A stretch of 64,000 bases of DNA. Origin: an uncultured Tidjanibacter sp. GTDB lineage: Bacteria > Bacteroidota > Bacteroidia > Bacteroidales > Rikenellaceae. The notes beneath the pieces are model-generated. The model saw only the letters and a program-made list of their open reading frames with translations. It was not told the DNA's origin and ran no database searches. Shown piece after piece: positions 1 through 16,451 of the stretch (position 1 is the stretch's first letter; every line of letters starts with the position of its first letter). The stretch spans positions 124,001-188,000 of the forward strand of contig CANTVF010000004.1 of NCBI GenBank assembly GCA_947852905.1, written 5' to 3'. A program made the translations under genes and the position numbers.

Positions 1-63
1 ACAAACAACCGCAGCCAACAGCATTAGCCTATAAACATAAAACCTAATCAGGGAAAGTTCCAT
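1..63 (-). CDS. Partial exported immunity-like protein (5' end only), paralog of the gene at 8663-9205
   Basis: Only the first 21 codons are inside the window, read from an ATG at 61-63 towards the left edge. The peptide begins MELSLIRFYVYRLMLLAAVV, almost identical to the start of the immunity candidate at 8663-9205, which has MELSLIRFYVYTLMLLAAVV after two extra residues. This is a hydrophobic signal-peptide core. As in the intact copy, the start overlaps the end of an RHS tip, here decayed (44-160). Whether the rest of the gene is intact lies outside the window. Confidence 0.55.
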   Translation of the reverse strand, partial: MELSLIRFYVYRLMLLAAVVC

Positions 64-160
64 TTTATAAAATATAACTGGCAGCAAACATTGAAATCTA
101 CTCTGCAATGCATCTATTATTATCAGTTTCAGACGCTTCCCACCTTACAAATGACTTAAA
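44..160 (-). pseudogene. Decayed 3' end of a JAB-type RHS toxin tip
   Basis: This stretch aligns base for base over most of its length with 9180-9290, the end of the active RHS tip. It can still be read as a SEASET-D motif and a terminal NGTFPD followed by a stop at 44-46. In between, small indels and an in-frame TAG break the frame. It is the scar of a second copy of the active toxin/immunity junction, so the active cassette or a close relative was once present further along the array. Nothing suggests it is expressed. Confidence 0.65.
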
Positions 161-184
161 TACACACAACTATTCAATCACGAC

Positions 185-841
185 CTAATTGTTGCAGTCT
201 AACCACCCCCTGCGCACGGCACGCACATAATAGAATGGCGTATAGACAATATTCAAAAATACCAACAAAATAATGCGCCACTTTTTATCATACTCATAAT
301 TAACAATCAAACATTTGACCCACAAAATCATAAAAGCCAAACAACAAACGGTAGTCACGACAACAAAAACAGTATTAGTTATATTATAACCGTATCCGAT
401 TATGTAAAGCGCAACATAAATGATATTCAAAACAGCACAAACGCCGAAAAACACTTTCATTCGCTTATAATACCGGACAGAACGATAATGTTGACAAGAC
501 CTTTCTGCTACAGACACGTCCGCATTATCATCGGATGCATTCTGTTTTTCGCACTCATCATCAGTACGCTTATCCAACCACCCCATACGCAAAGCTCTAA
601 CATAATAAAACGGCACATATCCGATCGACAAGAACAATAACAAATAAGCATAAATACCCTTATCATATTTATTACGAATGACAAAGCATTTAATCCACAA
701 TGCCAGAAACCCGACGAAACAAACCGTCAAAAATCCTTTCAGGATATCTTCATTACATTGTATATCCGCCATACGCAATACGACCGGAACAGTCACAAAT
801 AAAATATCCAAAACCGCACAAATGCCCCAAAACAGTTTCAT
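185..841 (-). CDS. Membrane protein made of two tandem homologous halves
   Basis: I do not recognise a named family. The 218-residue protein is an internal duplication. Residues 1-95 (MKLFWGICAVLDILFV ... PFYYVRALRMGWLD) and about 127-218 (MKVFFGVCAVLNIIYV ... PFYYVRAVRRGWLD) align along their whole length. Each half has about three hydrophobic segments, a conserved WxKC..N(K/Y)YDK motif and a terminal PFYYVRA.R.GWLD. The linker is polar and acidic. It lies at the distal end of the last RHS cassette, after the RDD gene and its hairpin, on the same strand, so a role in immunity or membrane protection is possible but unproven. The gene starts with ATG at 839-841. A weak overlapping frame upstream (to about 935) looks like a third degenerate copy of the repeat start. 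Confidence 0.7.
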   Translation of the reverse strand: MKLFWGICAVLDILFVTVPVVLRMADIQCNEDILKGFLTVCFVGFLALWIKCFVIRNKYDKGIYAYLLLFLSIGYVPFYYVRALRMGWLDKRTDDECEKQNASDDNADVSVAERSCQHYRSVRYYKRMKVFFGVCAVLNIIYVALYIIGYGYNITNTVFVVVTTVCCLAFMILWVKCLIVNYEYDKKWRIILLVFLNIVYTPFYYVRAVRRGWLDCNN

Positions 842-980
842 GGCAAAATTCGTTTAATATCGACAATAAGCCTACAGACCAATAGATTATTAAATATACA
901 AAAAAAGTGACGCAGATTCCCAACCGCACCCTCAAAGGAGCAAAGTCAAATAGCAGGCTTTTACTTGATACGTTCCGAAA

Positions 981-1010
981 TAATGGCGAAACTACGATAG
1001 TCCGCCATTA
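981..1010 (-). terminator. Imperfect hairpin after the first RDD gene
   Basis: The arms TAATGGCG and CGCCATTA enclose partly complementary inner bases. It lies 20 bp past the RDD stop on the minus strand. It corresponds in position to the perfect hairpin at 5786-5816 behind the second RDD gene, so it is probably the degraded counterpart. The T-run is weak. Confidence 0.45.
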
Positions 1011-1362
1011 AAGATAGTAAAATAGGTGAATTACTGATACAGTAACCGAATTAAAGGATTCTGGTAAACAATATATAGCATCACGAACAGAATCGCCCAA
1101 ACTGCCATAAACAACAATATACCTACCCATGTCACTCGACGAATAATATTACCTTCGACAACATCCGTATGAGTTACAATATCGCCGAGACGACGCTTCT
1201 TAAGAAACAACACAACAAGTTCTATAGGCCACACCACTATAAACAAGTTACGGACTAACGCGCGAAACTCGCTAACAGGATGAAAACTATCTGCATCAAC
1301 GACCGATAAGCCGCAGATCCGACGCCCAAGACTACGACCGGTAAAAATATCCCGACAGAAAA
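1002..1362. repeat. 361-bp duplicated RDD 3' segment, copy 1
   Basis: It matches 5808-6169 with one substitution and one single-base indel. It covers the C-terminal two thirds of both RDD genes plus the adjoining hairpin arm. The sequences diverge abruptly upstream of the CRDIFTGRSLGRR motif, so the two genes have different N-termini and the same C-terminus. This indicates recent duplication or gene conversion. Confidence 0.9.
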
Positions 1363-1498
1363 ACACTGCGAACACAATCGAAACCAATGCAAGACCAGCT
1401 ACATACCCTATGTAACGAATGCAGATTTGAAACACGGCTCCAAACAATGAAACCAATATCAAATCTATTAAAAATGCCACCAATCGTTTACCTATCAT
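1031..1498 (-). CDS. RDD-family membrane protein in an orphan RHS cassette
   Basis: The 155-residue membrane protein has the RDD layout. An N-terminal helix carries the KRLVAFLIDLI motif (R and D), followed by further hydrophobic helices and the second conserved element CRDIFTGRSLGRRICGL. RDD proteins are small multi-spanning membrane proteins of largely unknown function, some linked to ion exchange. It lies 19 bp behind the small two-helix gene at 1518-1709, inside the cassette of the tip at 1712-2251. Its last ~109 residues are identical to those of the RDD protein at 5838-6389, which sits at the same place in another cassette. It is either an immunity component or a cargo gene carried with the cassettes. 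Confidence 0.8.
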   Translation of the reverse strand: MIGKRLVAFLIDLILVSLFGAVFQICIRYIGYVAGLALVSIVFAVFFCRDIFTGRSLGRRICGLSVVDADSFHPVSEFRALVRNLFIVVWPIELVVLFLKKRRLGDIVTHTDVVEGNIIRRVTWVGILLFMAVWAILFVMLYIVYQNPLIRLLYQ

Positions 1499-1517
1499 AA
1501 ATAAAAACTTAAAATAG

Positions 1518-1709
1518 TTAATGTATTATCACCCAACGATCTATCTTTTTCCTAAATATAAGACACAATATACCGCATAACATGATGAAAGCACCCGCGC
1601 CAACACCCTCCCAGAATATTGGAGTTTTATAAAAAACATTATCTAAAATAGTAGCCAAACCGCCGATAATAAGCAATACATAAACGATTATTTTCTTAAT
1701 AGACACCAT
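1518..1709 (-). CDS. Small two-helix membrane protein, candidate immunity protein
   Basis: About 63 residues with two predicted membrane helices (IIVYVLLIIGGLATIL and GAGAFIMLCGILCLIF), joined by a short aromatic loop and ending in a basic, hydrophobic tail. The ATG at 1707-1709 comes 2 bp after the stop codon of the RHS tip at 1712-2251. This tight coupling is typical of toxin/immunity pairs, so I infer an immunity role for a membrane-acting tip. No family is recognised. A TTG two codons earlier is an alternative start. Confidence 0.6.
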   Translation of the reverse strand: MVSIKKIIVYVLLIIGGLATILDNVFYKTPIFWEGVGAGAFIMLCGILCLIFRKKIDRWVIIH

Positions 1710-1711
1710 AA

Positions 1712-2251
1712 TCAATTATTCAATATTTCATTTAACCCTTGAGTTAACAACTCAAAATCAAAATGCAGACTTATTCCAATAATCCCTTTAAAATCAAACC
1801 CTATACTACCTGACGATACATCATTAGTATTTGTTGTCTGACTATCATCAACCTCATAATTTCCATTACTTTGTCGATACGCTTGTTCTGTCATTACGTT
1901 ATTCACAGAGATAAACGGCTGAACTTCAATACTGTTTGTTGTAACCACCGTAGCTGTATTATTATCATTTTCAGAGACTTCCTGCTTTGTTTCAAAAGAA
2001 AACATACCTGCACTTATCGAAACGCCATTACTAACATCTCCAGAACTGAATTCATTATTCTGTCCATCATATTTCACAATATCAACACTTGCGGCGTTGA
2101 TACCAAACCCGATTTTTCCACCTCCAAGTTCTAGTCCAAATCCTACCTGTGCGCCTATAGAAATATTTCCAGACATAGACTCCCGTATCAGTTTTATACC
2201 AGTAGGCCAATCTGCGTTATCCTCTATAGCCATTCCCGTCGGATCTACCAA
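1712..2251 (-). CDS. Silent orphan RHS toxin tip (cassette 4)
   Basis: The frame opens with LVDPTGM, the exact end of the RHS core. The core frame continues upstream to about 2340 as LSPDPLAEEYGDVSPYSYC and then meets a stop, so there is no normal start, signal peptide or core. The ~173-residue tip after GM is glycine-rich and predicted beta-rich (GAQVGFGLELGGGKIGFGIN, then SIGFDFKGIIGISLHFDF), with alternating hydrophobic strands like a membrane-inserting or pore protein. I recognise no catalytic motif. It is followed at once by a two-helix candidate immunity protein. The simplest reading is a donor cassette that must recombine into the full RHS gene to be expressed. The TTG start is only nominal. 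Confidence 0.7.
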   Translation of the reverse strand: MVDPTGMAIEDNADWPTGIKLIRESMSGNISIGAQVGFGLELGGGKIGFGINAASVDIVKYDGQNNEFSSGDVSNGVSISAGMFSFETKQEVSENDNNTATVVTTNSIEVQPFISVNNVMTEQAYRQSNGNYEVDDSQTTNTNDVSSGSIGFDFKGIIGISLHFDFELLTQGLNEILNN

Positions 2252-2505
2252 TCTTACCGGATTACCGAGACAGTAAGAATAAGGTGATACATCACCGTAT
2301 TCTTCCGCCAGCGGATCGGGAGATAGCCAGCGGCCGAGGCTAATACAAACTACATAAACAGCATCGGTTCGTCATACGACCACCATTATCGTAAAAAAAC
2401 ACCTTCTGCATAACCAAAGCACATTTATCTCAATAAATATAATAAAAAAGCGCGACACATTAAACTGCGACGCGCTTTCATTTGCACACAAATTATTCAA
2501 TCATA
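2231..2505. repeat. 275-bp cassette-boundary repeat, copy 1 (terminator spacer plus 110-bp RHS core end)
   Basis: It is nearly identical to 7520-7794. Bases 2231-2340 encode the end of the RHS core and also match 9759-9868 of the full-length gene with about five differences. Bases 2341-2505 are non-coding spacer containing the terminator of the preceding cassette. The unit therefore marks the boundary between cassettes and gives homology for tip exchange. Confidence 0.9.
2447..2478 (-). terminator. Terminator of cassette 3
   Basis: The stem is AAAGCGCG/CGCGCTTT with a 16-nt loop, followed on the minus strand by TTTTTTATT. It lies about 35 bp past the stop of the gene at 2513-3031, within the boundary repeat. 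Confidence 0.8.
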
Positions 2506-2512
2506 ATCTTTA

Positions 2513-3031
2513 TCATATCTGAGGTCCGACTGTGAAAACAGAATCTCGTTTGGTGTAATAAATCGCAGTATAATCAAGTCCGTTATTGACACGACTGGCA
2601 CGAACCTTTTTTACCCGATTTTTACGCGCCGACTTGACTCGTACTTTATCGAAAATCTCTACATAAACATACGTTTCATACAAAACATCTTTTGATAACG
2701 GCAACTCATAATAAGTAGGACTTACTTTTGAATACTTATCTGTATCACTATAAAAACAAAACATCAATTCTGTACAGTCCTGAAGCTTTTCGTAATCGGA
2801 CTTTTTCATTTGCAAATTACCGGGTGTATAACTGCTGCAAGGAAACTCTACCCGTTCTCCAGCACTATTCTCGGCAACAAACATAACTCCCTGAACTTCA
2901 GACAGCAAATAATTATTCCTTATTATTACATAATTCAACAAAATACTATCTTCTGAATCCAATTGGGGTTGTTGTCCAAAAGCAAAACACACATCTACGA
3001 CAACAACAAAAAACAAAAACATTCTCTTCAT
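2513..3031 (-). CDS. Exported protein, candidate immunity protein (paralog of 3071-3604)
   Basis: The 172-residue protein has a signal peptide (MKRMFLFFVVVVDVCFAFGQ). The mature part shares with its neighbour at 3071-3604 the pattern LNYVxxRNxxLL, MFVxExSxGxxVEF, YxPGxLxMxKSDYEKL and a DTDxY motif, so the two arose by tandem duplication. No named family is recognised. The pair follows the JAB-like orphan tip at 3610-4284, ends in a terminator and is exported, which fits protection against a toxin acting in the periplasm or on the way out. The C-terminal ~40 residues are rich in lysine and arginine (KSARKNRVKKVRASR). Confidence 0.65.
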   Translation of the reverse strand: MKRMFLFFVVVVDVCFAFGQQPQLDSEDSILLNYVIIRNNYLLSEVQGVMFVAENSAGERVEFPCSSYTPGNLQMKKSDYEKLQDCTELMFCFYSDTDKYSKVSPTYYELPLSKDVLYETYVYVEIFDKVRVKSARKNRVKKVRASRVNNGLDYTAIYYTKRDSVFTVGPQI

Positions 3032-3070
3032 ACCATAACTACACGTTTACAAAAAAGAAATATGCAAAAT

Positions 3071-3604
3071 TTAAAACCAAGTCATATAATGCAATTGACT
3101 TGCACCTCCGAAATAAATACAAGCCCCATATTTATCGCTACCATCAAAACTTATCTTTATTCTCGGTTTTCTAGCATCATGACTCGGCCTATGTACCCGA
3201 CTACGTTTCTTGTCGTAAACCCTAATCTCGATATAGTTCTCTTCGAATGCATCTGAACTCAACGGTATAGCATATGTAGTAATACCGTACCCCCCTCGAT
3301 ACTGGTCTGTATCTGTACTAAATCTCAATACGATATTCGAGCATTCTTTCAATTTTTCATAATCAGACTTGAACATATTAAGATGACCGGGTTCATAACC
3401 CCTCCCCTGAAACTCGACAACACACCCGGTACTGTCTTCGCCCACAAACATTATGGCACCTGCATCAAATCTTTTAAGCACAAAATCATTACGGACAAAA
3501 ACATAATTCAAAGAAACCATATCGTCAGATATTTTATATTGTTGTCCGAATAAGGACGGAACCATGCAAATCAAGAAAAATACACTCAAAAACAATCTCA
3601 ACAT
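3071..3604 (-). CDS. Exported protein, candidate immunity protein for the adjacent JAB-like tip
   Basis: The 177-residue protein has a clear signal peptide (MLRLFLSVFFLICMVPSLFG before QQYKIS). It starts 5 bp after the stop of the JAB-like tip at 3610-4284, which suggests translational coupling. It is a paralog of the next gene (2513-3031), sharing LNYVFVRNDFVL, the MFVGEDS strand, YEPGHLNMFKSDYEKL and DTDQY. No family is recognised. The immunity role is inferred from position, size and duplication. Confidence 0.65.
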   Translation of the reverse strand: MLRLFLSVFFLICMVPSLFGQQYKISDDMVSLNYVFVRNDFVLKRFDAGAIMFVGEDSTGCVVEFQGRGYEPGHLNMFKSDYEKLKECSNIVLRFSTDTDQYRGGYGITTYAIPLSSDAFEENYIEIRVYDKKRSRVHRPSHDARKPRIKISFDGSDKYGACIYFGGASQLHYMTWF

Positions 3605-3609
3605 AACGA

Positions 3610-4284
3610 TTAATTATTTAATATTCTATCTACTACATTTCTATTTAATGTAAGATAAGATTTTCCGTCAATTACATCGCTACCATAAAAAGATATAGCA
3701 TAATCAGATTGGATAATTTCACCTGTTCGTGAATCGAAACGCGATAATTCTTTTCTTCCAACTATTATATTTACAGGATACTTCCCAAAAACAGCAGAAT
3801 CCCCAGGCCCCATATTAATATCACCTCTAATCAATTGTCCATTTTCTATAAAAGCATCCGTCATATGCGAATGAATGGTGGCGGCAACATCGCCATGACT
3901 ATATCCATCTGGCAATGACGGCAATTCGGCACTCAACATAGCATCTCCGGAAACATATTCCGCACCAGGCTCTCCACGCAAAACATTATTGTCATTCAAT
4001 ACTACCGACGATTCTTCGCGACGTCCGCCATTCGCAATAGTCCTGTCCAAAACATTCAGACTCTCTTGCAATATAACATCGTTAGGCAAAACTACCGCAG
4101 AAGTGAGCGATCCCAACGATACCGGACCGTCTGATCTCAATATACTGCGTGCCTCCCGGTTATTAGTGACGACAACTCGTCTCGTATCAGACATATTGCC
4201 GTCATTTCCCAACAATCTCCCGTTAGCATTATAATACCAAATATCCTGAGCTCCGTCAGGATCTATGCGGAACTCATGAAACAA
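3610..4284 (-). CDS. Silent orphan RHS tip with JAB/JAMM-like metalloprotease domain (cassette 3)
   Basis: About 224 residues. It has JAB/MPN-like features: an acidic strand REESSVVL (possible catalytic Glu), an HSH pair in ATIHSHM, and a later GPGDSAVF that may supply the final Asp, followed by VNIIVG. These fit JAB-like toxin domains of polymorphic toxins, with spacing between the HxH and the Asp longer than in classical JAMM enzymes. The start of the coding part reads RIDPDGAQD, like the DPDG/DPTG end of an RHS core. The preceding DNA is an 86-bp piece of a different core part (4269-4354) in another reading frame. With only a TTG start and no signal peptide or core, it is probably silent. 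Candidate immunity genes follow 5 bp downstream. Confidence 0.6.
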   Translation of the reverse strand: MFHEFRIDPDGAQDIWYYNANGRLLGNDGNMSDTRRVVVTNNREARSILRSDGPVSLGSLTSAVVLPNDVILQESLNVLDRTIANGGRREESSVVLNDNNVLRGEPGAEYVSGDAMLSAELPSLPDGYSHGDVAATIHSHMTDAFIENGQLIRGDINMGPGDSAVFGKYPVNIIVGRKELSRFDSRTGEIIQSDYAISFYGSDVIDGKSYLTLNRNVVDRILNN

Positions 4285-4354
4285 CTCCCGTCAGCCAACC
4301 ACCAACTGCGAGCTTCCGAACCGCCGCTCGACCTACGACTACTCAACAAATTTA
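4269..4354. repeat. 86-bp fragment of the RHS core (second type of seed)
   Basis: It matches 10224-10312 of the full-length RHS gene, the part encoding QRRSSGGSEARSWWLADGSC, with a few substitutions and one 3-bp deletion. It is upstream of the core-end stretch found in the other stubs. In the core frame it runs into a stop just past the fragment, so the tip at 3610-4284 is out of frame with it. Confidence 0.8.
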
Positions 4355-4360
4355 CAAAAA

Positions 4361-4383
4361 AGGCCTTCACAAAATGAAGGCCT
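4361..4383 (-). terminator. Terminator behind the exported paralog pair
   Basis: The stem AGGCCTTCA/TGAAGGCCT has a 5-nt loop and is followed on the minus strand by TTTTTTGTAAA. It lies about 100 bp past the stop of the gene at 4481-5041 and separates it from cassette 3. Confidence 0.85.
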
Positions 4384-4480
4384 AAAATAATTTTACAGGT
4401 TTACCAATGACTAATGATCATTACTATATAATTCCTTTCACAAAAACCTTGGACTGCAAACGAACATTAGACTAAACACA

Positions 4481-5041
4481 TCAATAACAACGCACTACAC
4501 GATCATATTCCCACCATTTATTTTCAGAATTATACTTATATACTACTTTAAATGCCCCATAACAACACAGAACCATATCAGCATAATTCTCCAATTCACG
4601 TTCTTTTCGAGTAGCTTGACGCAATGAAAGAGACAGAAAAAAGAATTCCATGCCGTCCAACCCATATATATCACATAAATAAGTTACCCGCAACCTATCT
4701 TTTGGTTTATCCGTTTGATATTGACGACAATCAATGAAACGCAAGTCCAACGTATCGAGATTCTTTTGAATATAAACATGATTCTTCATTGTCATATCTA
4801 CAAATTCCCCACGAGGAAAATCATGATTCTCATTACGATTCGGATCGATACAATTTTTTCGATAATCAAAAAAATGCAACAATGCATCGTAAGCAAGATC
4901 GTCAATCCAATCTCCATAGATTTCATTATTATACCCTATGTTACTCCATGGGTTAGCCCCCAAAGTATCTGATGTGGAATCTTGCCCCAGACTACTAAAT
5001 CCAATAGAAACAAAAACGATAAGAAATATTAGTTTTTTCAT
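4481..5041 (-). CDS. Exported protein of a tandem paralog pair
   Basis: About 186 residues. I place the start at the ATG of 5039-5041 because it opens a good signal peptide (MKKLIFLIVFVSIGFSSLGQ); the frame itself is open to 5095. The mature protein shares with the neighbour at 5092-5676 the patterns DDLAxDALLxFxDYRKxCID, FPxGEFVDMT, YIQKNLDTLxLxFIDCRQY and LFLSLSLRxATRxER. No known family is recognised. No toxin tip directly precedes the pair, so these may be orphan immunity genes left after loss of their toxin. Confidence 0.65.
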   Translation of the reverse strand: MKKLIFLIVFVSIGFSSLGQDSTSDTLGANPWSNIGYNNEIYGDWIDDLAYDALLHFFDYRKNCIDPNRNENHDFPRGEFVDMTMKNHVYIQKNLDTLDLRFIDCRQYQTDKPKDRLRVTYLCDIYGLDGMEFFFLSLSLRQATRKERELENYADMVLCCYGAFKVVYKYNSENKWWEYDRVVRCY

Positions 5042-5091
5042 AATTCTAACTTTAACATCGGCAACACGATATTGTCTGCAGATACAATATA

Positions 5092-5676
5092 TCATAATTT
5101 TCTATATGGGCGTATAATGTGTTTATAAGCCCACCCTGTAGTATATGCATTATATTGATATAATATCTCTAAAGCCCCATAAAAACAATAAATCATATCT
5201 GTATCATTATCTAATTTACGTTCCTCTCGCGTAGCCGGACGCAATGAAAGAGACAGAAATAAAAAATTCACAGTAGCCCCAGTAAAATCTACATCCCACA
5301 AATAAGTTACTCTTACCTCATTAGGTATAGCTGTTTTATATTGACGACAATCAATGAAATGCAAGTTCAGCGTATCGAGATTCTTTTGAATATAATTTAT
5401 GTTATCCATTATTGTCATATCTACAAATTCCCCGCTAGGAAAATCACGCGCCCTACGACAACTCTGATCTATACAATCTTTCCTATAATCAAGGAAACGC
5501 AACAATGCATCGCACGCAAGATCATCCAACTCATGCGCATTTTTCTCATTAATTATTTCAATGTACTCGTTATTATACCATAGTGCTCTCCGAAATGGAT
5601 CAGGTATGGAATCTTGCCCCATGCAGAACTGGGAATATGACAAAAAAAACATTAAAAGAATCAATAAACGCTTCAT
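5092..5676 (-). CDS. Exported protein, first gene of a tandem paralog pair
   Basis: About 194 residues from the ATG at 5674-5676, which opens a signal peptide (MKRLLILLMFFLSYSQFCMG). It is a paralog of the next gene (4481-5041), about half identical. Conserved blocks include DFPSGEFVDMT, NYIQKNLDTLNLHFIDCRQY and FLSLSLRPATREER. A stretch of about 110 bp without a gene separates it from the hairpin that closes the RDD gene, so the pair probably forms its own unit. The function is unknown. An immunity role is inferred from the locus only. Confidence 0.65.
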   Translation of the reverse strand: MKRLLILLMFFLSYSQFCMGQDSIPDPFRRALWYNNEYIEIINEKNAHELDDLACDALLRFLDYRKDCIDQSCRRARDFPSGEFVDMTIMDNINYIQKNLDTLNLHFIDCRQYKTAIPNEVRVTYLWDVDFTGATVNFLFLSLSLRPATREERKLDNDTDMIYCFYGALEILYQYNAYTTGWAYKHIIRPYRKL

Positions 5677-5785
5677 ATCATCGAAAGTTTTCAAATTTAC
5701 TCATTGGTAAGGTAGCTTGTACGCCTTGTGAATTATAAATATAAACCATAATTATTAACATCCAACACATTAAAACTACACATAA

Positions 5786-5816
5786 TAATGGCGGCACTAT
5801 TGTAGTGCCGCCATTA
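5786..5816 (-). terminator. Perfect 14-bp hairpin behind the second RDD gene
   Basis: The arms TAATGGCGGCACTA (5786-5799) and its exact complement (5803-5816) enclose a 3-nt loop. It lies 21 bp past the stop of the RDD gene at 5838-6389. There is no long T-run, so it may be a terminator, an mRNA-stabilising hairpin or a boundary marker of the mobile segment. Confidence 0.6.
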
Positions 5817-6169
5817 AAGATAGTAAAATAAGGTGAATTACTGATACAGTAACCGAATTAAAGGATTCTGGTAAACAATATATAGCATCACGAACAGAAT
5901 CGCCCAAACTGCCATAAACAACAATATACCTACCCATGTCACTCGACGAATAATATTACCTTCGACAACATCCGTATGAGTTACAATATCGCCGAGACGA
6001 CGCTTCTTAAGAAACAACACAACAAGTTCTATAGGCCACACCACTATAAACAAGTTACGGACTAACGCGCGAAACTCGCTAACAGGATGAAAACTATCTG
6101 CATCAACGACCGATAAGCCGCAGATCCGACGTCCAAGACTACGACCGGTAAAAATATCCCGACAGAAAA
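5808..6169. repeat. Duplicated RDD 3' segment, copy 2
   Basis: It matches 1002-1362 with one substitution and one single-base indel. It spans one arm of the hairpin and the C-terminal ~109 codons of the RDD gene. The upstream parts of the two genes are unrelated at the DNA level. Confidence 0.9.
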
Positions 6170-6389
6170 CAAGAGTTAATAATAAGGCCTCAATTATAGT
6201 AACCAACAGCATGATTTTAGAAATCATCCGTATTCCAATAACAATGTACAATAATAATATACCCAACAATGCTACACTCGACAAATCAATTGCAAAAGCG
6301 ATCAATCTTTTAAATATCAAATTATCTGCAATAACAACTACCGTCACCAATAACAGTACAAAGCAAATACATAACAATATCCACCACAT
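5838..6389 (-). CDS. RDD-family membrane protein in cassette 2
   Basis: The 183-residue protein has an extra N-terminal hydrophobic helix, then IFKRLIAFAIDL (the first RDD element), two more helices and the CRDIFTGRSLGRRICGL motif. From that motif on it is identical to the protein at 1031-1498. It starts 4 bp after the stop of the one-helix protein at 6394-6873, so tip, one-helix protein and RDD protein form one unit. The RDD protein could be a second immunity factor or a channel-like partner. The function is not established for this family. Confidence 0.8.
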   Translation of the reverse strand: MWWILLCICFVLLLVTVVVIADNLIFKRLIAFAIDLSSVALLGILLLYIVIGIRMISKIMLLVTIIEALLLTLVFCRDIFTGRSLGRRICGLSVVDADSFHPVSEFRALVRNLFIVVWPIELVVLFLKKRRLGDIVTHTDVVEGNIIRRVTWVGILLFMAVWAILFVMLYIVYQNPLIRLLYQ

Positions 6390-6393
6390 AATA

Positions 6394-6873
6394 TTATTCT
6401 ACGTTAGTTGTCACGATAAGATTTTTGTCTATATCAATAAATAGATTAATACTAGAATATAAACGTTCACAAGCGTCCTTATAATCCTTATATGCAATCT
6501 CCCCATATTCATGTAACACAATATCAGCATTACAATATTCATAATCGACAAAATCAACGTCTATGTTAGCATTACAATCATCGAACACAATCAATCGATT
6601 TTCGTCTACAAATATCTGAACACTCTTGAAATCAGACATACGTAAATAATTACCGTTCGCTTCATAATAAGAGTCATACTTATATGGCATTAAATACACG
6701 CCTCCTACCGTTTGTAATACAGTAAACACCTTATCTCCACCTAATTCACACCATATCAAGCGAGGTGTTACAATCCATATGAATGCCATAAGCACCAACA
6801 AACAGCACCCTAAAAAGACATACAAAAATAATCCTCCTGCAACCCTCAAGAATATTGACCGCCCAAACTTCAT
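6394..6873 (-). CDS. One-helix membrane protein, candidate immunity protein
   Basis: The 159-residue protein has a single strong membrane helix (VAGGLFLYVFLGCCLLVLMA) after a short basic N-terminus, then an acidic, tyrosine-rich exposed domain (ANIDVDFVDYEYCNADIVL). It starts one base after the toxin-tip stop at 6875-6877, the usual spacing of an immunity gene. No named family is recognised. Acidic immunity domains that mimic nucleic acid are common in toxin systems, but that is inference here. Confidence 0.6.
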   Translation of the reverse strand: MKFGRSIFLRVAGGLFLYVFLGCCLLVLMAFIWIVTPRLIWCELGGDKVFTVLQTVGGVYLMPYKYDSYYEANGNYLRMSDFKSVQIFVDENRLIVFDDCNANIDVDFVDYEYCNADIVLHEYGEIAYKDYKDACERLYSSINLFIDIDKNLIVTTNVE

Positions 6874-6874
6874 A

Positions 6875-7540
6875 TTAATATTTTAACGGATTTGAGTTCC
6901 AATTATTTAACAGTTTATTCTTAAACACATCAAAGCCTATAGTATGTCCAAGTTTTTGAGCTTGCTGAGATGGCTGACCTTCAACTGTCCACCCGACCTT
7001 TCCGTTTAGTTTCATAGAAACAATACTTTGATATCCATCAAATCCCATCCTAGTAATCGTCCAGTTCAGACCATGAGTTCCAGCCACATACCCAGCAGCA
7101 TAATTCCCTATATCACGTGCTGATGCATAAACAGTATTATGCGAATCAACCTTTATTGGCATTCCTCGATAATAATGAGCATCATAGTGGGTTATATTAC
7201 CATCGTCAGATCCTCTATGCTTAAAATCAAATACTTTACCATTTCCTGCATTATTCATATACTCCAACAAGCCTGGAGTATTCTCAATAATCTCATTATT
7301 CAAAAACTGCTGTCCTGAATTATCATTAGGATCTATAATAGCACCATCTACAGCATTACCATTATCATCTAAAAAAGAATATTCCGTCAAAGATTGTCCT
7401 AAAATCTCGCCCGTACGCTGTCCATTTTCTGTAACATAAATATTAAGATCACCATCTGCTATTCCACCTACAACCATATATGTACCATCATCCATCATTT
7501 CAACTTCAGTACTTACAAACATTCCCGTCGGATCTACCAA
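6875..7540 (-). CDS. Silent orphan RHS toxin tip (cassette 2)
   Basis: It opens with LVDPTGM in frame with the 110-bp core stub, which is open upstream to about 7629 and then blocked. The ~215-residue tip has an N-terminal part rich in D, G and N, then a compact C-terminal domain containing HYDAHYYRGMPIKVD, SARDIGNYAAGYVAGTHGL and LGHTIGFDVFKN. The ARDIGNYAAGYVAG stretch resembles what I remember of some Rhs-tip toxin domains (type-44-like), but I cannot confirm this and assign no activity. There is no start codon of quality, no signal and no core, so I read it as a donor cassette. The candidate immunity gene follows directly. Confidence 0.65.
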   Translation of the reverse strand: MVDPTGMFVSTEVEMMDDGTYMVVGGIADGDLNIYVTENGQRTGEILGQSLTEYSFLDDNGNAVDGAIIDPNDNSGQQFLNNEIIENTPGLLEYMNNAGNGKVFDFKHRGSDDGNITHYDAHYYRGMPIKVDSHNTVYASARDIGNYAAGYVAGTHGLNWTITRMGFDGYQSIVSMKLNGKVGWTVEGQPSQQAQKLGHTIGFDVFKNKLLNNWNSNPLKY

Positions 7541-7794
7541 TCTTACCGGATTACCGAGACAGTAAGAATAAGGGGATACATTCCCGTATTCTTCCGCCAG
7601 CGGATCGGGAGATAGCCAGCGGCCGAGGCTAATACAAACTACATAAACAGCATCGGTTCGTCATACGACCACCATTATCGTAAAAAAACACCTTCTGCAT
7701 AACCAAAGCACATTTATCTCAATAAATATAATAAAAAAGCGCGACACATTAAACTGGGTCGCGCTTTCATTTGCACACAAATTATTCAATCATA
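7520..7794. repeat. 275-bp cassette-boundary repeat, copy 2
   Basis: It is the counterpart of 2231-2505 with only a handful of differences. Bases 7520-7629 match the full-length RHS gene at 9759-9868 with four differences over 110 bp. The remaining 165 bp are spacer with a terminator. The copy just after the active cassette could recombine with the core to swap or delete the tip. Confidence 0.9.
7736..7767 (-). terminator. Terminator of the active RHS cassette
   Basis: The perfect 10-bp stem AAAGCGCGAC/GTCGCGCTTT is followed by a minus-strand T-run. It lies about 40 bp past the stop of the gene at 7809-8411. It isolates the silent tips from transcription of the active operon. Confidence 0.85.
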
Positions 7795-7808
7795 CTAACG
7801 AGATATAT

Positions 7809-8411
7809 CTAATCGAAAAAGTCACCCCATACACGCCACTCTTCAGGCGGGACACCATTAAGATAATCGGCCTTACGGGGAGCATCATCTAAAGTATAAT
7901 TCTGAAAGACCACATGTTGCCAATCCGGTACAGAAGAATATACTTCCCATTTCTTTGTCAATCCTTGATAATGCACCCATTTTAAAACTATCGACGACAT
8001 TATATCATCTATAGAGTCCAAATCTGGCAACTGAAAAGCCGGCAATTCGACAAACAAACTTATCATGACCTTTTGCCCTATACCAACATCATAATGATAA
8101 TCATAATCGCCGCTAAGGCTATTAACCTGCTCTCTACATTCAGCCGTATAATCCACTCCGTCAATCTTATACAACATCGTAAATTTGTCCCACTTCTGTA
8201 ATAGAAACACGAATTCTTTATCCATATCATTATAAACCTCTGCCTGTATCTTAAATCTGGTTGTAGGTGCATTAGTAATTGACCAAATATCCCAATAAGC
8301 TACCGTATCTGTTACATTACGGCCAATATCGACTTTTTTAATCGTTAATTTCTGGCCAAAAACATCTAATGTCGCAAACAATACACAAAAAATAAGCAAG
8401 ATTTTTTTCAT
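7809..8411 (-). CDS. Exported protein of the active RHS cassette, unknown function
   Basis: The 200-residue protein has a signal peptide (MKKILLIFCVLFATLDVFG before QKLTIK). The mature part looks like an all-beta fold with many aromatic residues (VAYWDIWSITNAP, LVKWVHYQ-type strands and a tail ending in WRVWGDFFD). It is the last gene before the terminator, 251 bp after the immunity candidate at 8663-9205, a gap in which I see no gene. It may be a second immunity factor or an accessory protein. No family is recognised. Confidence 0.65.
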   Translation of the reverse strand: MKKILLIFCVLFATLDVFGQKLTIKKVDIGRNVTDTVAYWDIWSITNAPTTRFKIQAEVYNDMDKEFVFLLQKWDKFTMLYKIDGVDYTAECREQVNSLSGDYDYHYDVGIGQKVMISLFVELPAFQLPDLDSIDDIMSSIVLKWVHYQGLTKKWEVYSSVPDWQHVVFQNYTLDDAPRKADYLNGVPPEEWRVWGDFFD

Positions 8412-8662
8412 GATATCAATTTTTCAAATTCAAAATCACTGTTTTAAAATAATATGAAAGCGTATTCAACTTATAAGTGTCCGTAGTCAATTGAAAACTG
8501 GGCGATGTAATTTATATTCCCACATACTTATTCACATCAATAATTACACCTCGAAATGCCTTTATATTTTAAGCATCCTACGCATTTCACTCAAACACAT
8601 GATATACAAGAATATATCTCTATATTCCACAGATCACGACAGCAAAAAGTTTAATATTATTT

Positions 8663-9205
8663 TTATAAGATAGGAACCAATCTTGTACCTCGTCGACTAT
8701 CTACAAAGCCTTGAAAAACCAATTCTCCTTTATATGTAAAATTATAATGCCACATCAAATACGGATCTTTTATAATATACATCTTAATGGACTGTTTATT
8801 AATGCACTTAAATTCTTTTGTACGGTCAGTTAATGCATATAATACCGAAGGAATATCTTTTATCACAAACAACACATTATCTACAGAAACATATCCAGCA
8901 CTATTCACATATGGACAATAGGTACCTGTAATATTCTCAATATTTAAGTAAGTATTACTACTGGCCACATCATCTGTAGAAGAGTAAATTATATAATTAA
9001 ACTTTCTATCAAAAGAGGCATTATCCATAATGTTATGGATCTGATGCAGCAAATCGTCTCTCAATTGCAACTCAGGCAATACATAAACATCATATTTGTC
9101 ATTCGAGTATTGCTGCGCATAAGATTCCCCTGCCATAAAAACGACAGCAGCCAACAGCATTAGCGTATAAACATAAAATCTAATAAGGGAAAGTTCCATT
9201 TTCAT
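8663..9205 (-). CDS. Exported protein, candidate immunity protein of the active JAB-type RHS tip
   Basis: The 180-residue protein has a signal peptide (LMLLAAVVFMAGESYAQQ). Its ATG at 9203-9205 lies inside the end of the RHS gene, overlapping it by 26 bp in another frame, which is strong translational coupling. The mature part is mixed alpha/beta and rich in Tyr and Asp (YDVYVLPELQLRDDLLHQI, then FNYIIYSSTDD). No family is recognised. Position and coupling support an immunity role against a toxin that would otherwise act outside the cytoplasm. A near-identical N-terminus recurs at 1-63. Confidence 0.7.
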   Translation of the reverse strand: MKMELSLIRFYVYTLMLLAAVVFMAGESYAQQYSNDKYDVYVLPELQLRDDLLHQIHNIMDNASFDRKFNYIIYSSTDDVASSNTYLNIENITGTYCPYVNSAGYVSVDNVLFVIKDIPSVLYALTDRTKEFKCINKQSIKMYIIKDPYLMWHYNFTYKGELVFQGFVDSRRGTRLVPIL

Positions 9206-12200
9206 AAAATATTATTGGTATCAAGCCTGGAAATTTACTCTGAAGTGCATATTTCATATTCTTATCAGCTTCAGACGCTTCACTACTATACAAATGGCTA
9301 TGCATATGTGATGTAATAGTATAAGAATTAGCCAACAAAAATCCACCGACTATAGAAACATTTGACTTAAACGATGTTCCAACAACTGTTTTCTTACCGT
9401 CACCTATTCCTACCTGCTCCCATTCAACCAAACTATGATTAGCCACAAACTCAAAAAATCTGTTCATTATTTCTGTATCGCCAACATAAAATGCTATGTT
9501 ATATAGCAATTTACTCTCTTCGGAATTATTATCTTCATTGCATGAAAGATTTAAAAATATTTTCTTTGAATCAAAAACATCTGATGGCATAATCAAAACA
9601 TCATCTTGTCCATGTACAACAACTGGTCTTTTATCATTGCCATCGTTAGTATACACCCAATACAAATCTGAAAACAATCTATCTTGAGTTTCATCCTTGA
9701 CTCCATCCTCAACTAAATCAATAGTACCATCAAAATTCAACCGATAATCATCAATAAACATTCCCGTCGGATCTACCAATCTTACCGGATTACCGAGACA
9801 ATATGAATAAGGTGATACATTCCCGTATTCTTCCGCCAGCGGATCGGGAGACAGCCAGCGGCCGAGGCGACTGTCGTAAACTCTCGCTCCGTAGTCAAGA
9901 AAACCGTAATCGTCAAGGCTGAGGTCGTAAGGCTTGCCGTTGAAACGATAGATGTTGAAACGGTAATCTCCTCCGCTGCTATGATGTCCGTAACACTCCA
10001 AGCGGGCGCCGAAAGGCTGGTAATCGTTCGCTGCCTCTATCCTATTGCGATTCGTGAAAACTACACGGACACTCCCCAAATGGTCGGTGATCGTATAATA
10101 ATTGCCTAACAACGGACCGCGCCCGGCCTGCGACATGACATTGCCGCCGGAGAAGGCAACCGATAAAATCGGAACGCTTGAACCGCGCCAATTATATGTG
10201 AAAGAACCTTTGTAAATTCGGTCGGAACTCATGAAACAACTCCCGTCAGCCAGCCACCAACTGCGAGCTTCCGACCCACCGCTCGACCTACGCTGACTAC
10301 TCAACAAATTTAAGTAATTATATCCAAGATTCAAACCGTACAGGGCATGATATGTCATATTTCCATTCGCATCGTAAGCAAAATCATCCGCAGTTATATT
10401 TTTCACTGTAGAACTACCGACGGTTTTCTCCTGTGAAATTATCTTACAGATACGGTTGCCGACATAAGAGTATGAATTATCTACCATAGAACTGCCGTCC
10501 TGAGACTGCAAACGTTCGATATTGCCGTTAAGGTCGTAGTCGATAATCTGGCCTATGACGCCGCTCCCTTCCAGCCCTTCTCCACGCACGAGACGGCCGA
10601 GTGCATCGTAGGTATAACCGAGGCAACGACGGTCTTCGGGATCGGTTACCTTATGTCGCCAATAGGCCTCGACGATATTGCCGGTATGACTTGCCGAAAC
10701 GTATTGCGGATTATCGTATCGAAGCGTCTGCTCGAAAACCTCCGAATACTGGCCGGTCAGACGCCCACGAATATCGTAAGAATAGGTCTCGGTGACATTG
10801 GATGCACCGTCCCGTGCACCGAACACCTTAGTCTGTACCAGACCGGTAGCGTCGTTATATTCATACGATACGGTAGCTCCGGACGAACGGCCGTTAATAG
10901 TGACGTTCTCGGTCAACAGGCGGCCGCAATGATCGTAAGTATAATCGAATCTGGCCGTATCGCTGGCTATGCTCGGATCGGGACTATGAGTCTCCACACG
11001 GCTAATAACGTTACCTACGTAATCGTAACGATAACTGTAACGTGAAATCAGCCCCATGAAATCGCGCTCAACGGTCTGTACGACGCGACCTTTACGGTCG
11101 TAGTAATGTACACGTTCCACATAATTTCCCGTCACCACATCGCCTTCTATAACTGCTATACGCTCGAACGTCTTGAGGCCGGCATTACGCGGATCGACAT
11201 CGTCAATATCCACGATACCCGTTACCGGAACAAACATGAAAATGTCCGCCGACGTTCCCACTGTCTCTCCCGAGTATGCCCAGCCGATCTTTTCGATCTT
11301 CTCGATATACCCCTTAAGACACGCCGGAAGATCAAGGCTGTTAATAAGGCTGGCGTTATTAGTCAGTCCCCACGCACCGCCGGAATACCTCACGCATTCC
11401 TGAATCAGATTGTAATGTTCCTGAGGGATATAATAATACAAATAATTGTCTCCCAACGCCGTACCGAGATCAGGTATATAAAACTCCTTACGGATCATAT
11501 TGTTCTCGTCGAAAAACACCTTTTTCGTATCTACGGCACCGAAAGCCCACACCGCATCCGGATTAGGATTACGGACAAAAACCAACTTGTCGGGCAAAAC
11601 TTCGATTTTCCCCGCCTCATCAGTGACAAGAGCTATCTGGTCATCGTAACCGGTGGTTATGAGCGTAGCAGATGCCGTTACGGCAGGCTTGCTACCGCCG
11701 GTATCGTAATACTTCTGCCAATCGTCACGCGAGGCGAACTTACCGGACGAATTCTTTCCGGCAGTCAACAGGACGTTACCTGTCTGACGTCCCCATGCAT
11801 CGTAATCGTACCTGATCCACTGACAGGTGTCCGCCCGACGCATATTGGCATCCTGATACATGACAGTACGGCGATCAGAATCGTAAACCATATATTCCCA
11901 ACCTCGCCCCGGCTGTTTTTTTCCGGCAATACGGCTTTTCTCATCGTACTCATACAGATAACCGTATTCCTGCAATATATCGGATTCGGCAAACGAAAGA
12001 GTCTGACCGGGAGCCATACGGGACGCACCTTCCGGAGATACGACACCCGTGAGCCTGTCCAGATCGTCATAGACATAATACGTATCGGCGCATAACTGCT
12101 GCTCTACAGTACCTTCGGACAGATAGCGACGCTCCAACACGGTTTTACCCATAACATCTTTAAATATTTCGGTACGCCCTCCGTCTTCATCGACAACCGT

Positions 12201-12959
12201 ATTCTTGAACAGTTTTCCCGTACCGCAATAAGATGCGGCGATAACGAAAGTCTCTCCGTTTACCGTAATATCCAACACCTTGTCTTCCGAAGATACGACA
12301 TCGTATCCGAATTCGGATTTGTAGGACGTATAACCGGGCTGATAGGATTGCAACAATCTGCCGCCCGCGGCCTGCTCGTATATTCTACGGGTTGTTCCAT
12401 AATCCGTCCCATAAGATGCGCTGCTCCATGCCTTATGCTCGGCAGATGCCTCCGGGCGGAACTTGCCGTCGTTAGGGAAAGGACTATCTGCCGGCTCCGG
12501 ATACGGCAAATATCCCACCACATCTTCACGACCGAGAAAATCGTGTTCATAAGGCGTTATCATATCCAACTGGTGAGAGCTGCTCTTACGTTCCACACGC
12601 TGCTTAATGTACCCCATATCGTCATAGTACGAAACCGTACCGAGATACTCAATATCGTTAGCAGTGCTGTAGGAGACCCTCTTCACGGGCTCTATGTACC
12701 TCTTTCTTATCATGATATTGCCATCCTGCCCGAGGATTCCATCCGACCAAGAATCCGCTACGGATACACTCGTATTCTCCGTATAACTTTCGACCTTCCA
12801 GACAGGTTCAGGCGTATACTTAATTGTAGGCCCTACGATATATGCCTGCACTCCGGAGTTATCATCCGAAATAATAGTTTCGGAATCCTTTCCCGGCGGA
12901 TAACTGAATCCACACGAAACCATAGCCGCCGTCAATATATATAACAAACTCATATTCAT
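9180..12959 (-). CDS. RHS repeat-associated core protein with C-terminal JAB-like toxin tip
   Basis: 1259 residues. The N-terminus resembles a lipoprotein signal (LTAAMVSC), followed by a DUF6443-like region and then many YD/RHS repeats such as YDDLDRLTGV, YDYVGNVISRV and YDALGRLVRGEG. The RHS core ends in YDSRLGRWLSPDPLAEEYG...NPVRLVDPTGM at about residue 1067. The last 192 residues are a distinct tip with JAMM-like residues: E1179 or E1181 in VEWEQV, H1220 and H1222 in HMHSH, S1229 and D1232 in SEAD. The HxH-to-Ser spacing is one residue shorter than in classical JAMM enzymes. RHS cores form a shell that encloses the toxin. Delivery is probably by an export route for lipidated or periplasmic proteins, but no secretion genes are seen here. 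It starts 6 bp behind the partner gene 12966-16451. Confidence 0.9.
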   Translation of the reverse strand: MNMSLLYILTAAMVSCGFSYPPGKDSETIISDDNSGVQAYIVGPTIKYTPEPVWKVESYTENTSVSVADSWSDGILGQDGNIMIRKRYIEPVKRVSYSTANDIEYLGTVSYYDDMGYIKQRVERKSSSHQLDMITPYEHDFLGREDVVGYLPYPEPADSPFPNDGKFRPEASAEHKAWSSASYGTDYGTTRRIYEQAAGGRLLQSYQPGYTSYKSEFGYDVVSSEDKVLDITVNGETFVIAASYCGTGKLFKNTVVDEDGGRTEIFKDVMGKTVLERRYLSEGTVEQQLCADTYYVYDDLDRLTGVVSPEGASRMAPGQTLSFAESDILQEYGYLYEYDEKSRIAGKKQPGRGWEYMVYDSDRRTVMYQDANMRRADTCQWIRYDYDAWGRQTGNVLLTAGKNSSGKFASRDDWQKYYDTGGSKPAVTASATLITTGYDDQIALVTDEAGKIEVLPDKLVFVRNPNPDAVWAFGAVDTKKVFFDENNMIRKEFYIPDLGTALGDNYLYYYIPQEHYNLIQECVRYSGGAWGLTNNASLINSLDLPACLKGYIEKIEKIGWAYSGETVGTSADIFMFVPVTGIVDIDDVDPRNAGLKTFERIAVIEGDVVTGNYVERVHYYDRKGRVVQTVERDFMGLISRYSYRYDYVGNVISRVETHSPDPSIASDTARFDYTYDHCGRLLTENVTINGRSSGATVSYEYNDATGLVQTKVFGARDGASNVTETYSYDIRGRLTGQYSEVFEQTLRYDNPQYVSASHTGNIVEAYWRHKVTDPEDRRCLGYTYDALGRLVRGEGLEGSGVIGQIIDYDLNGNIERLQSQDGSSMVDNSYSYVGNRICKIISQEKTVGSSTVKNITADDFAYDANGNMTYHALYGLNLGYNYLNLLSSQRRSSGGSEARSWWLADGSCFMSSDRIYKGSFTYNWRGSSVPILSVAFSGGNVMSQAGRGPLLGNYYTITDHLGSVRVVFTNRNRIEAANDYQPFGARLECYGHHSSGGDYRFNIYRFNGKPYDLSLDDYGFLDYGARVYDSRLGRWLSPDPLAEEYGNVSPYSYCLGNPVRLVDPTGMFIDDYRLNFDGTIDLVEDGVKDETQDRLFSDLYWVYTNDGNDKRPVVVHGQDDVLIMPSDVFDSKKIFLNLSCNEDNNSEESKLLYNIAFYVGDTEIMNRFFEFVANHSLVEWEQVGIGDGKKTVVGTSFKSNVSIVGGFLLANSYTITSHMHSHLYSSEASEADKNMKYALQSKFPGLIPIIFYENGTFPY
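9759..9868. repeat. 110-bp RHS core end in the full-length gene, recombination seed
   Basis: It encodes LGRWLSPDP...NPVRLVDPTG-M at the core/tip junction. Two further copies head the silent tips at 2231-2340 and 7520-7629, with four to five differences each, in the same orientation and frame. A crossover here would join any of those tips in frame to the core. Confidence 0.9.
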
Positions 12960-12965
12960 ATCGAT

Positions 12966-15900: not shown

Positions 15901-16451
15901 AAAGAGCCGTTTCCGCCGCCGGGATAGGTATACCTGTACATATCGTAATATGAATCCGCATTACCCAATACGACGCCTTTAATATATTCTTTGGCTCCGT
16001 CTACGGCCTTGTAATGTTTGGACGTACCGTCATCATACAACCGTGTAAGTTCATCGGCCATATGTATCTTAAACTGTGGCTTAGCATCGTCAGGAATCCC
16101 CTTGACTTCCCGTCCTACCACACCCGAGGCATTCAACGTCCAGCCCAAGCCGAGACAACCGGCTTTGTCATCTACTTTAATGCCCGATGCATGATAGGAA
16201 ATGGAAATTGGTAATTCCATTTCATGACCTTCGACCGTATAAATAGGAATACTGATATCGACCAATCCCAATGAATGCGTAACAGGCAGATCCACATATT
16301 TCAGCATCTGGGTAACGTCAGGCGACGGCGGAATAAAGTTGTCCGACACCGCCGGCAAAACAGGGGCGACATTCTCTTGTTGCCCGAAACACAAGACGCC
16401 CCCCGACGCCAATGCACACAACAGGACAAATAATCTTTTCATAAACATCAT
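12966..16451 (-). CDS. Large exported RHS-partner protein (SpvB/TcB-like N-terminal half of a split RHS system)
   Basis: 1161 residues with a signal peptide (MKRLFVLLCALASGGVLCFG). The N-terminal part has VTHSLGLVDISIPIYTVEGH, LPISISYHASGIKVDDKAG and LGLGWTLNASGVVGREVKG, the SpvB/TcB-type opening seen in Bacteroidetes RHS partners. The middle is a long series of beta-strand repeats, and the C-terminus carries one clear YD repeat (DPSGRKTYYQYDGAGRLTAV). It is the first gene of the operon and lies 6 bp before the RHS core gene. By analogy with TcB/TcC it may form part of the hollow shell that holds the tip. The start could also be the internal ATG three codons later. No exact TAnnTTTG box was found upstream. 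Confidence 0.8.
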   Translation of the reverse strand: MMFMKRLFVLLCALASGGVLCFGQQENVAPVLPAVSDNFIPPSPDVTQMLKYVDLPVTHSLGLVDISIPIYTVEGHEMELPISISYHASGIKVDDKAGCLGLGWTLNASGVVGREVKGIPDDAKPQFKIHMADELTRLYDDGTSKHYKAVDGAKEYIKGVVLGNADSYYDMYRYTYPGGGNGSFMIDKSGNPVMLCSGDDAVGVNLVVGANEGTVKSFQVQDPNGNTYLYDQIEMVHSYLRPLLDWTTGGNWNIGADYKVGSSWHLSKITSCNGLDSWTLYYDTPDAVWENMIEMYSLTYLRDGLKIYNVDPSNPMRQDIVSCELDPYFTVGRVNRSEMHRDYYDRKILSRIDCGHCSIEFEYERRYNPENPELESISVYDVNGNIIRKVEFQIGQFGNGERKLDAVRFIGSDGTVYDTYEFSYYDQSASMNRNAQDRFGYYNGKNSNTNLLYKCLFEEDAIIKYVAKGSSSVADYGITVGTGIIPPEDMQEVITDAVSVPFRDIKSEALNSMVAGPGQSSGGFGQEFEEVVTVYEIGREMEHKRDYSLEHAVTYSLQSVTTARGDKTVFKYGAPEWEYTDADTGEVEVISTGIRIDSIETYDRNGVLQRLRRFEYSDSGCTIDFNDISLKDYMSLDQNSVEVSKIMNGGLYNYTVTEAQYINIGTSVVLPGANPDNAKVFYNKVREIISDGTGDDAGRAVIDYVYDCDASVHKPTEISQIFNSTPTYARGTERISLPGTVTGFYYHASEENRDTTAYYKGVGNIRRYFMESPQEFGNLSSKTIYKTDADGRLVMTEQENTVYGKFCNVSGADSSGTVPVGLYVQKLTANMSVNEHAGVENQLVPKDKIRIENLPEDCLYFDVRQSVYTTRPLYTVKRSFNPSGNVEECRVYMYLDNGKYGKWPFSGEIPETPSVDFEELDMLSGCDALPQRVATLQPKGEIKFVNGDVYYNRYLYRDNYGQEEGVANDNMWRHVLLGMETRKNDGIVSAVYTKYGYVPMAGSTLLKMRKPVEKVAVLDGVVTSEAAILEYDQFGNPVHITQTGYPSTCYIWGYMGMYPVAVIENATYSEVRSALGASVLKEIGNSSTLSATHQIKLDALRNALPDAKITVYSYKPLVGVASVTDPSGRKTYYQYDGAGRLTAVRDEQGNIVEAYEYNKIN

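Follow-up and report, generated by a model that had tools for sequence, protein, structure and literature searches.

We analyzed a stretch of 64,000 nucleotides (the window) from the genome of an uncultured Tidjanibacter sp. of the family Rikenellaceae (2.24 Mb in 17 contigs). In our numbering of genomes (G), contigs (C), and loci (L), this genome is G000 and the window is C4:124001-188000. The left part of the window carries, on the minus strand, an RHS array that consists of a split RHS shell with an active C-terminal tip (tip0), a candidate immunity gene behind that tip (imm0), and three detached tips (tip1 to tip3) farther downstream (Table 1). The sequence supports the view that this locus encodes a polymorphic toxin of the RHS type, accompanied by detached toxin/immunity cassettes. 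We infer that the tips are toxins and that their immunity genes are among the small open reading frames (ORFs) behind them. In a preliminary description of the same DNA, the coordinates given were correct within a few bases: tips 1 to 3 are open frames, and small ORFs lie directly behind every tip, where the description had placed candidate immunity genes. It had also spoken of one full RHS gene; a full RHS is present, but the unit is made up of two genes, RHS-A and RHS-B. On the minus strand of positions 1 to 9700, there are 14 stop-free runs of at least 150 codons; among 300 first-order Markov sequences matched in composition, the longest run had 160 codons. The GC content is about 0.44 to 0.53 in the shell genes and 0.30 to 0.44 in the tip region.

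RHS-B passed the thresholds for RHS domains (TIGR03696, 62.4 bits with a cut-off of 32.5; PF05593, 39.6 bits with a cut-off of 22), and its variable C-terminal tip follows a DPxG motif, which reads VDPTG at the joint. Tip0, the active C-terminal tip, matched the known toxin domain Toxin-JAB1 with a whole-protein score of 35.2 bits (cut-off, 21) and is probably peptidase-like, of the JAB type. For RHS-A, a test for a split shell of the TcB/TcC-like type gave a SpvB match at an E value of 0.022, which is below the cut-off, and neither RHS-A nor RHS-B had a sequence match in PDB. As for delivery, the type VI secretion sheath family PF05943 had no match in the genome; this was the single family tried, and the sheaths of the phylum may be too divergent for it. 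A type IX secretion tail was found in four proteins of the genome, but RHS-B itself ends in its tip. RHS-A and many of the immunity candidates look exported or membrane bound by eye.

Cassettes 1 and 3 have both ends in common, with 275 nucleotides (nt) at 98.2% identity on the 5' side and 386 nt at 97.9% on the 3' side. Between these shared arms, no BLASTN match was found between the two cassettes, so their payloads are unrelated. The RDD-family proteins that end the two cassettes are near-identical in their C-terminal halves. Tip2 opens with IDPDG, as does its relative in G479, unlike the local joint VDPTG, and therefore probably came from a different core. Its JAMM-like motif has G at the position where JAMM enzymes have S. 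Metallopeptidase-like motifs (HExxH or JAMM-like) were seen by eye in tips of L030, L032, L033, L035, L067, and L089 as well as in tip0 and tip2 of the window; among those scanned, only tip0 had a Pfam match above the cut-off. Single-sequence structure prediction failed for tip2 and tip1, with mean predicted local distance difference test scores (pLDDT) of 35 and 33, respectively. To the left of the array are housekeeping-like genes, such as a frame that reads as dxs-like.

Table 1. Features of the RHS array, from the shell to the left edge of the window
Feature	Positions	Strand	Remarks
RHS-A, first half of the split RHS pair	12966..16451	-	1161 aa; signal peptide by eye; RHS repeat; sub-threshold SpvB match
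RHS-B	9180..12959	-	DUF6443, RHS repeats, Rhs_assc_core (residues 980-1067), then active tip0 (Toxin-JAB1, residues 1166-1234)
Core end, sequence copied before tips 1 and 3	9747..9868	-	sequence comparison
imm0, candidate immunity gene of the active tip	8663..9205	-	180 aa
Second small protein behind imm0, candidate immunity gene	7809..8411	-	signal peptide by eye
5' arm of cassette 1: hairpin, linker, core-end copy	7520..7794	-	98.2% identical to 2231-2505
Terminator-like hairpin before cassette 1	7735..7768	-	RNA fold -18.7 kcal/mol, z -6.3
Detached tip1	6875..7540	-	no Pfam/NCBIfam family above cut-off; no ATG in core-end copy, one at joint
Candidate immunity gene of tip1	6394..6873	-	ORF behind tip
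RDD-family membrane protein of cassette 1	5838..6389	-	Pfam scan
3' arm of cassette 1, ending with a strong hairpin (5786-5816)	5784..6169	-	97.9% identical to 979-1362
Small protein without own tip, candidate orphan immunity gene	5092..5694	-	paralogue of 4481-5095 (50% aa)
Paralogue of 5092-5694	4481..5095	-	50% aa
Terminator-like hairpin with T-run, directly before cassette 2	4361..4383	-	hairpin scan
Copy of core site 10223-10312 before tip2, out of frame with tip2	4268..4354	-	93.3%
Detached tip2	3610..4284	-	JAMM-like HSH...GPGD by eye; relative in G479 at 36%
Candidate immunity gene of tip2	3071..3604	-	ORF behind tip
Paralogue of 3071-3604	2513..3031	-	41% aa
5' arm of cassette 3: hairpin and core-end copy	2231..2505	-	fold -19.2 kcal/mol, z -4.2
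Detached tip3	1712..2251	-	no family above cut-off
Small membrane-protein-like ORF, candidate immunity gene of tip3	1518..1715	-	65 aa
RDD-family protein of cassette 3	1031..1498	-	Pfam scan
3' arm of cassette 3	979..1362	-	matches 5784-6169
Membrane-protein-like ORF, internally duplicated by eye	185..841	-	ORF
Broken tail of a tip0-like toxin	67..156	-	sequence match
Start of intact second imm0 copy (179 aa)	1..66	-	continues to L004:13524, 477 bases past the window edge

Core-end copies and signals before the detached tips

The end of the RHS-B core is repeated in front of the detached tips. The segment 9756-9868 recurs at 7517-7629 with 96.5% identity, and the slightly longer segment 9747-9868 recurs at 2219-2340 with 92.6% identity. 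The copy before tip2 is that of another core site (10223-10312) and matches it at 93.3%. In terms of the Rhs orphan-cassette criterion, that is, a detached tip with core homology, tips 1 and 3 have the homology in frame and tip2 has it as an out-of-frame copy of another site. The earlier observation that two tips begin with an in-frame copy of the core end was confirmed for tips 1 and 3, with 36 codons each. The three identities fall with distance from the core, a drop that rests on three points.

The differences between the core and its copies were mostly silent. The numbers of synonymous and nonsynonymous changes were 4 and 0 for cassette 1 (36 codons), 4 and 1 for cassette 3 (36 codons), and 3 and 0 for cassette 2 (23 codons, with an additional length difference of one codon versus the core). 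Pooled over the three copies, this makes 11 synonymous changes and 1 nonsynonymous change over 95 codons. Under neutral drift of silent DNA, at least three nonsynonymous changes are expected for each synonymous one. The same pattern was found in a survey of this and related arrays, in which the ratio of nonsynonymous to synonymous rates (dN/dS) was 0.33 or lower in all 34 RHS core-end pairs scored, several of which were pairs of two detached copies. A 35th scored pair (L075:2991) had a dN/dS of 0.85 and is not RHS by its letters; pooled over all 35 pairs, the ratio was 0.20. Pairs were scored when the RHS motif was in frame with at most one stop, so badly decayed copies are uncounted; some pairs run slightly into the tip, and pairs within one array are not independent. 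The mostly silent changes imply that the copies diverged mainly inside translated cores and that they were detached only recently, often return to cores, or are themselves translated. As measured by dN/dS, the detached cassettes look recent and usable, not dead. A nearest-core test on the last 105 nt, in which 10 of 19 copies were best matched in their own genome, was uninformative because the homology ends before the DPxG motif in several arrays.

Terminator-like hairpins precede all three cassettes of the window. Those of cassettes 1 and 3, each followed by T residues, have folding energies of -18.7 and -19.2 kcal/mol, respectively, and none of 200 shuffled sequences folded as well. Over positions 1 to 13000, the number of terminator-like sites was near chance (12 found, 9.4 expected). 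In a first scan of the surveyed loci (loops of up to 8), such a hairpin lay before 7 of 19 copies, versus 16% in the control. A second scan is considered below; its detector missed the hairpin of cassette 3, though this fold is about as good as that of cassette 1. The Bacteroides promoter consensus occurred in the window at chance level (2 found versus 1.19 expected). The earlier characterization of the tips as promoterless goes beyond what the sequence shows. The core-end copies of tips 1 and 3 contain no in-frame ATG, but the joint of either tip offers one, the codon for the M of VDPTGM, with a TTG immediately ahead of it, so that start-lessness is not established; in the tip2 frame, an ATG is found at codon 33.

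Tip replacement and arrays in related genomes

The preliminary description had proposed looking for alleles in which other tips are joined to the core. At this locus there are none among the genomes compared, but a junction variant was found in the same RHS family. The genomes G202 (L066) and G211 (L067), which belong to different genera of the family, share an RHS core at 97.0% identity over 1,919 nt. The homology stops in the RW..VDP segment, and the rest of the two stretches has no match. The two tips gave no BLASTP match to each other at an E value of 0.001; by eye, one contains HSH..SPSPND and the other HEYIGHG, and the small genes behind them also differ. In addition, an 88% copy of this core end is joined to a third tip, with HELMHG, in G160, where no full core was seen in the 14 kb read. 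Among 268 family genomes, 12 had a match to the G202/G211 core, and those beyond G211 and G160 reached just 66 to 78% or spanned less than 40 nt. The comparison thereby shows, for a core other than that of the window, tip exchange in this RHS family and gives a concrete case of natural tip replacement. The shared core of L066 and L067 may reflect a recent transfer or a misbinned contig, in addition to the replacement of the tip.

Matches to the core of the window were found in 3 of 23 genus genomes (its own, G003, and G019, the last at an E value of 5e-4), and a related core was found in 14 of 268 family genomes, including its own (E value of 1e-30 or better), with all others at 44% amino acid identity or less. 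Besides the window's own tips, tip0 had five relatives and tip2 had two (G479 and G598) in 393 genomes of the order, whereas tip1 had none in 268 family genomes and tip3 none in 295 genomes. In viral contigs, tips 1 to 3 had no relatives, and one exact 23-nt pattern used to look for the core had no match. One scan of genome contigs returned seven distant loci, which were not used further.

Arrays of the same kind recur in the family. The family survey comprised 17 loci in which 500 or more codons of core are open before the core end, three of which are in the host genome itself; the loci were picked by their matches and are hence no random sample. Further core-end copies lie downstream on the same strand in 8 of the 17 (the window, L061, L064, L065, L069, L070, L074, and L075). 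Among short core-end frames uncut by an edge, 26 of 29 run on into a tip of at least 100 codons. Same-order arrays were also present in G479, G598, G294, G563, and G640, which were found via relatives of tip0 or tip2. In G479, L088 is a row of detached RHS tips with immunity-like genes; a full RHS core is absent from the 20 kb that were read there. Within the host genome, the end of a second RHS core (L005 on C5) precedes other tips on C8, C14, and C15 (L030, L031, and L032) at 94 to 99% identity; these contigs start in the RHS repeats, at which the assembly breaks, and the tip row on C15 opens beside other genes, without a full core. A third full RHS pair (L033:8826-15659 on C2) has a tip with HEYGH and no downstream core-end copy in the stretch read.

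A second imm0 copy and the readings of the array

At the left edge, beyond all three detached tips, the stretch from base 156 to base -477 corresponds to 9299-8662 with 93.1% identity. This region had been described as a decayed remnant. The toxin tail is indeed broken (approximately 67-156), but the immunity gene next to it is whole: the second imm0 copy encodes 179 aa, is 95% identical to imm0, and has a dS of 0.114, a dN of 0.023, and a dN/dS of 0.20. With a whole immunity gene in it, the remnant at the left edge is more than a product of decay. This spare immunity gene beyond the array is the least ordinary detail of the locus.

The cassettes, the core-end copies, the shared arms, the constraint at the protein level, the intact distal imm0, and the tip replacement in the relative pair are seen directly by comparison. 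On these grounds, we consider that the locus is a split RHS shell with one active tip and its immunity gene, behind which follow detached tip/immunity cassettes, either captured or displaced when recombination took place at the core end; we put the probability of this reading at roughly 0.8. A cassette would then be a unit of hairpin terminator, core-end copy, tip, and immunity gene or genes. General homologous recombination between the core end and the copy in a cassette would load that tip onto the shell along with its own immunity gene. In cis, such recombination would delete the intervening DNA, including the old tip and the proximal immunity gene; with incoming DNA, the tip would be replaced without loss. 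Equally, the array may document former tips that have been displaced. We infer the silence of the cassettes and ongoing recombination here. The tip-switching layout proposed in the preliminary description therefore holds as a polymorphic RHS locus with detached cassettes and a replacement in a relative pair, but not as far as an alternative junction of this locus is concerned.

Several observations weigh against this reading. No allele of the locus with another tip was found in 23 genus and 268 family genomes, and the exchange history of the detached tips is unreadable because they have few or no relatives. The G202/G211 case comes from draft genomes (92% and 79% complete) and concerns another core. 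In the family survey, 9 of the 17 loci are without a visible copy (L005, which lies at a contig end; L033, L034, L035, L062, L063, and L066; L067, whose contig is short; and L068). The copy before tip2 hits a stop in the frame of the core, which puts tip2 out of frame with it. When cassette 3 is compared over a longer match of 122 nt, which extends beyond the core end, there are 5 synonymous and 4 nonsynonymous changes. Tips 1 and 3 could be translated separately from the ATG at their joint. In the second hairpin scan (loops of up to 13, more loci), a hairpin lay before just 7 of 29 copies (control, 6%; P = 0.002), which is an enriched minority.

The alternative that comes closest is a one-way succession, in which the cassettes are recent arrivals from other strains or freshly displaced tips and replacement is rare, with no switching within a strain. 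We regard this as about an even chance. The low dN/dS agrees with divergence on working cores followed by recent detachment, tip2 with its IDPDG start looks imported, recombination between direct repeats deletes the old tip, and the G202/G211 difference lies between genomes rather than within one. With one genome per species, however, such a succession is inseparable from occasional activation within a strain, and evolved lineages of Salmonella are reported to have undergone main-orphan fusion internally (PMC3967940). It is more doubtful that the row is an immunity archive, in which the tips are displaced leftovers that are never reused and the small genes are kept for protection against the toxins of neighbours. 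Candidate immunity genes do outnumber the tips, with the pair at 5092-5694 and 4481-5095 lacking a tip altogether, and an intact imm0 copy under constraint stands behind a broken toxin tail; in addition, expression of orphan immunity was shown for contact-dependent growth inhibition (CDI) in E. coli EC93 (PMC3150448). Against an archive, most tips in the survey are intact (26 of 29), and the core-end copies are almost free of the nonsynonymous drift that long-dead leftovers would have.

It is improbable that the cassettes are expressed alone as intracellular modules resembling toxin-antitoxin systems rather than serving as reserves of tips. An in-frame ATG precedes the core end in 26 of 29 surveyed stubs, in tips 1 and 3 one stands at the joint, and RHS elements of Salmonella reportedly act as type II toxin-antitoxin systems (PMC7043789). 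However, hairpin terminators stand before the three window cassettes, the promoter consensus is at chance level, and the immunity candidates look exported or membrane bound by eye. Programmed switching by a dedicated recombinase deserves hardly any credence: none of the 16 scanned window proteins of the locus matched a Pfam recombinase above the cut-off, and the surveyed core-end copies vary in how long they are and where they start, in keeping with general homologous recombination.

Under the reading of a shell with captured or displaced cassettes, the distal imm0 copy could have a further role. Loading of a tip in cis would remove the imm0 near the core but not the distal copy, so that recombinants would stay immune to unswitched siblings. 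If so, the distal copy would answer the question of how a cell changes its toxin without falling victim to its siblings. That it is a built-in safety for tip replacement, and as such a permanent solution to lost immunity, seems unlikely to us. Among the 8 family arrays with further core-end copies, a distal immunity copy was found in 2, the window and L069 (G033), in which the fourth gene behind the active tip recurs at 96% amino acid identity beyond the silent tips. L074 has a 33% paralogue of the first gene behind its active tip beyond one silent tip, and the other five have none in the stretch read. L034 has two copies of its immunity cluster, but they do not enclose a detached tip. The recurrence in 2 of 8 arrays is suggestive only.

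Comparison with known systems

Silent or orphan cassettes, the toxin-then-immunity order, and tip replacement are already established, and we make no claim that the layout is unpublished for this group. A literature search on DUF6443 found nothing. Among the closest parallels is Rhs of Salmonella LT2, for which Koskiniemi et al. (2014, PMC3967940) describe a detached rhs-CT/rhsI pair that lies behind a full rhs gene and lacks initiation signals; the core homology of this orphan spans 522 bp at 95%, and the fusion arises by homologous recombination. The main/orphan arrangement of Enterobacteriaceae and the array studied here are alike in having a full gene and a detached pair with core homology. 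They differ in that the shell here is split into two genes, the core copies are about 110 nt long, and a second imm0 stands beyond the array. Moreover, main-orphan fusion was reported for Salmonella, whereas switching here is putative. The same work proposes that recombinants retain their immunity through a further copy of the main immunity gene, which stems from a transient duplication of the locus.

For CDI systems, Poole et al. (2011, PMC3150448) describe orphan cdiA-CT/cdiI modules, together with Rhs "silent cassettes" and a joint motif of VENN or PxxxxDPxGL. In Y. pestis Microtus, a deletion loads an orphan onto the main gene, and the lost old immunity gene is named as the weak point of switching by deletion (PMC3150448). 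The array studied here resembles these systems in its rows of toxin/immunity modules and in having a joint motif, but the delivery protein of CDI is a different one and the joint here runs from RW..DP to VDPTG. In Neisseria, mafB-CT cassettes provide downstream alternative C termini with immunity genes, and those of a start-less class are potentially silent (Jamet et al., 2015, PMC4287609). The N-terminal carrier of mafB is unrelated to RHS, and by the list of start codons in that paper (ATG, GTG, TTG, ATT, and CTG), tips 1 and 3 would not rank as start-less.

For polymorphic toxin systems at large, those of Bacteroidetes among them, Zhang et al. (2012, PMC3482391) describe solo toxin cassettes, the toxin-then-immunity order, and peptidase tips, and interpret immunity genes that occur in strings as what earlier replacements left behind. 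The principle is laid out there, whereas the present analysis offers one case with measured arms and constraint. The experimental work in the cited papers concerns Enterobacteriaceae and Neisseria, and this locus adds a well-resolved case of orphan cassettes behind a split RHS shell.

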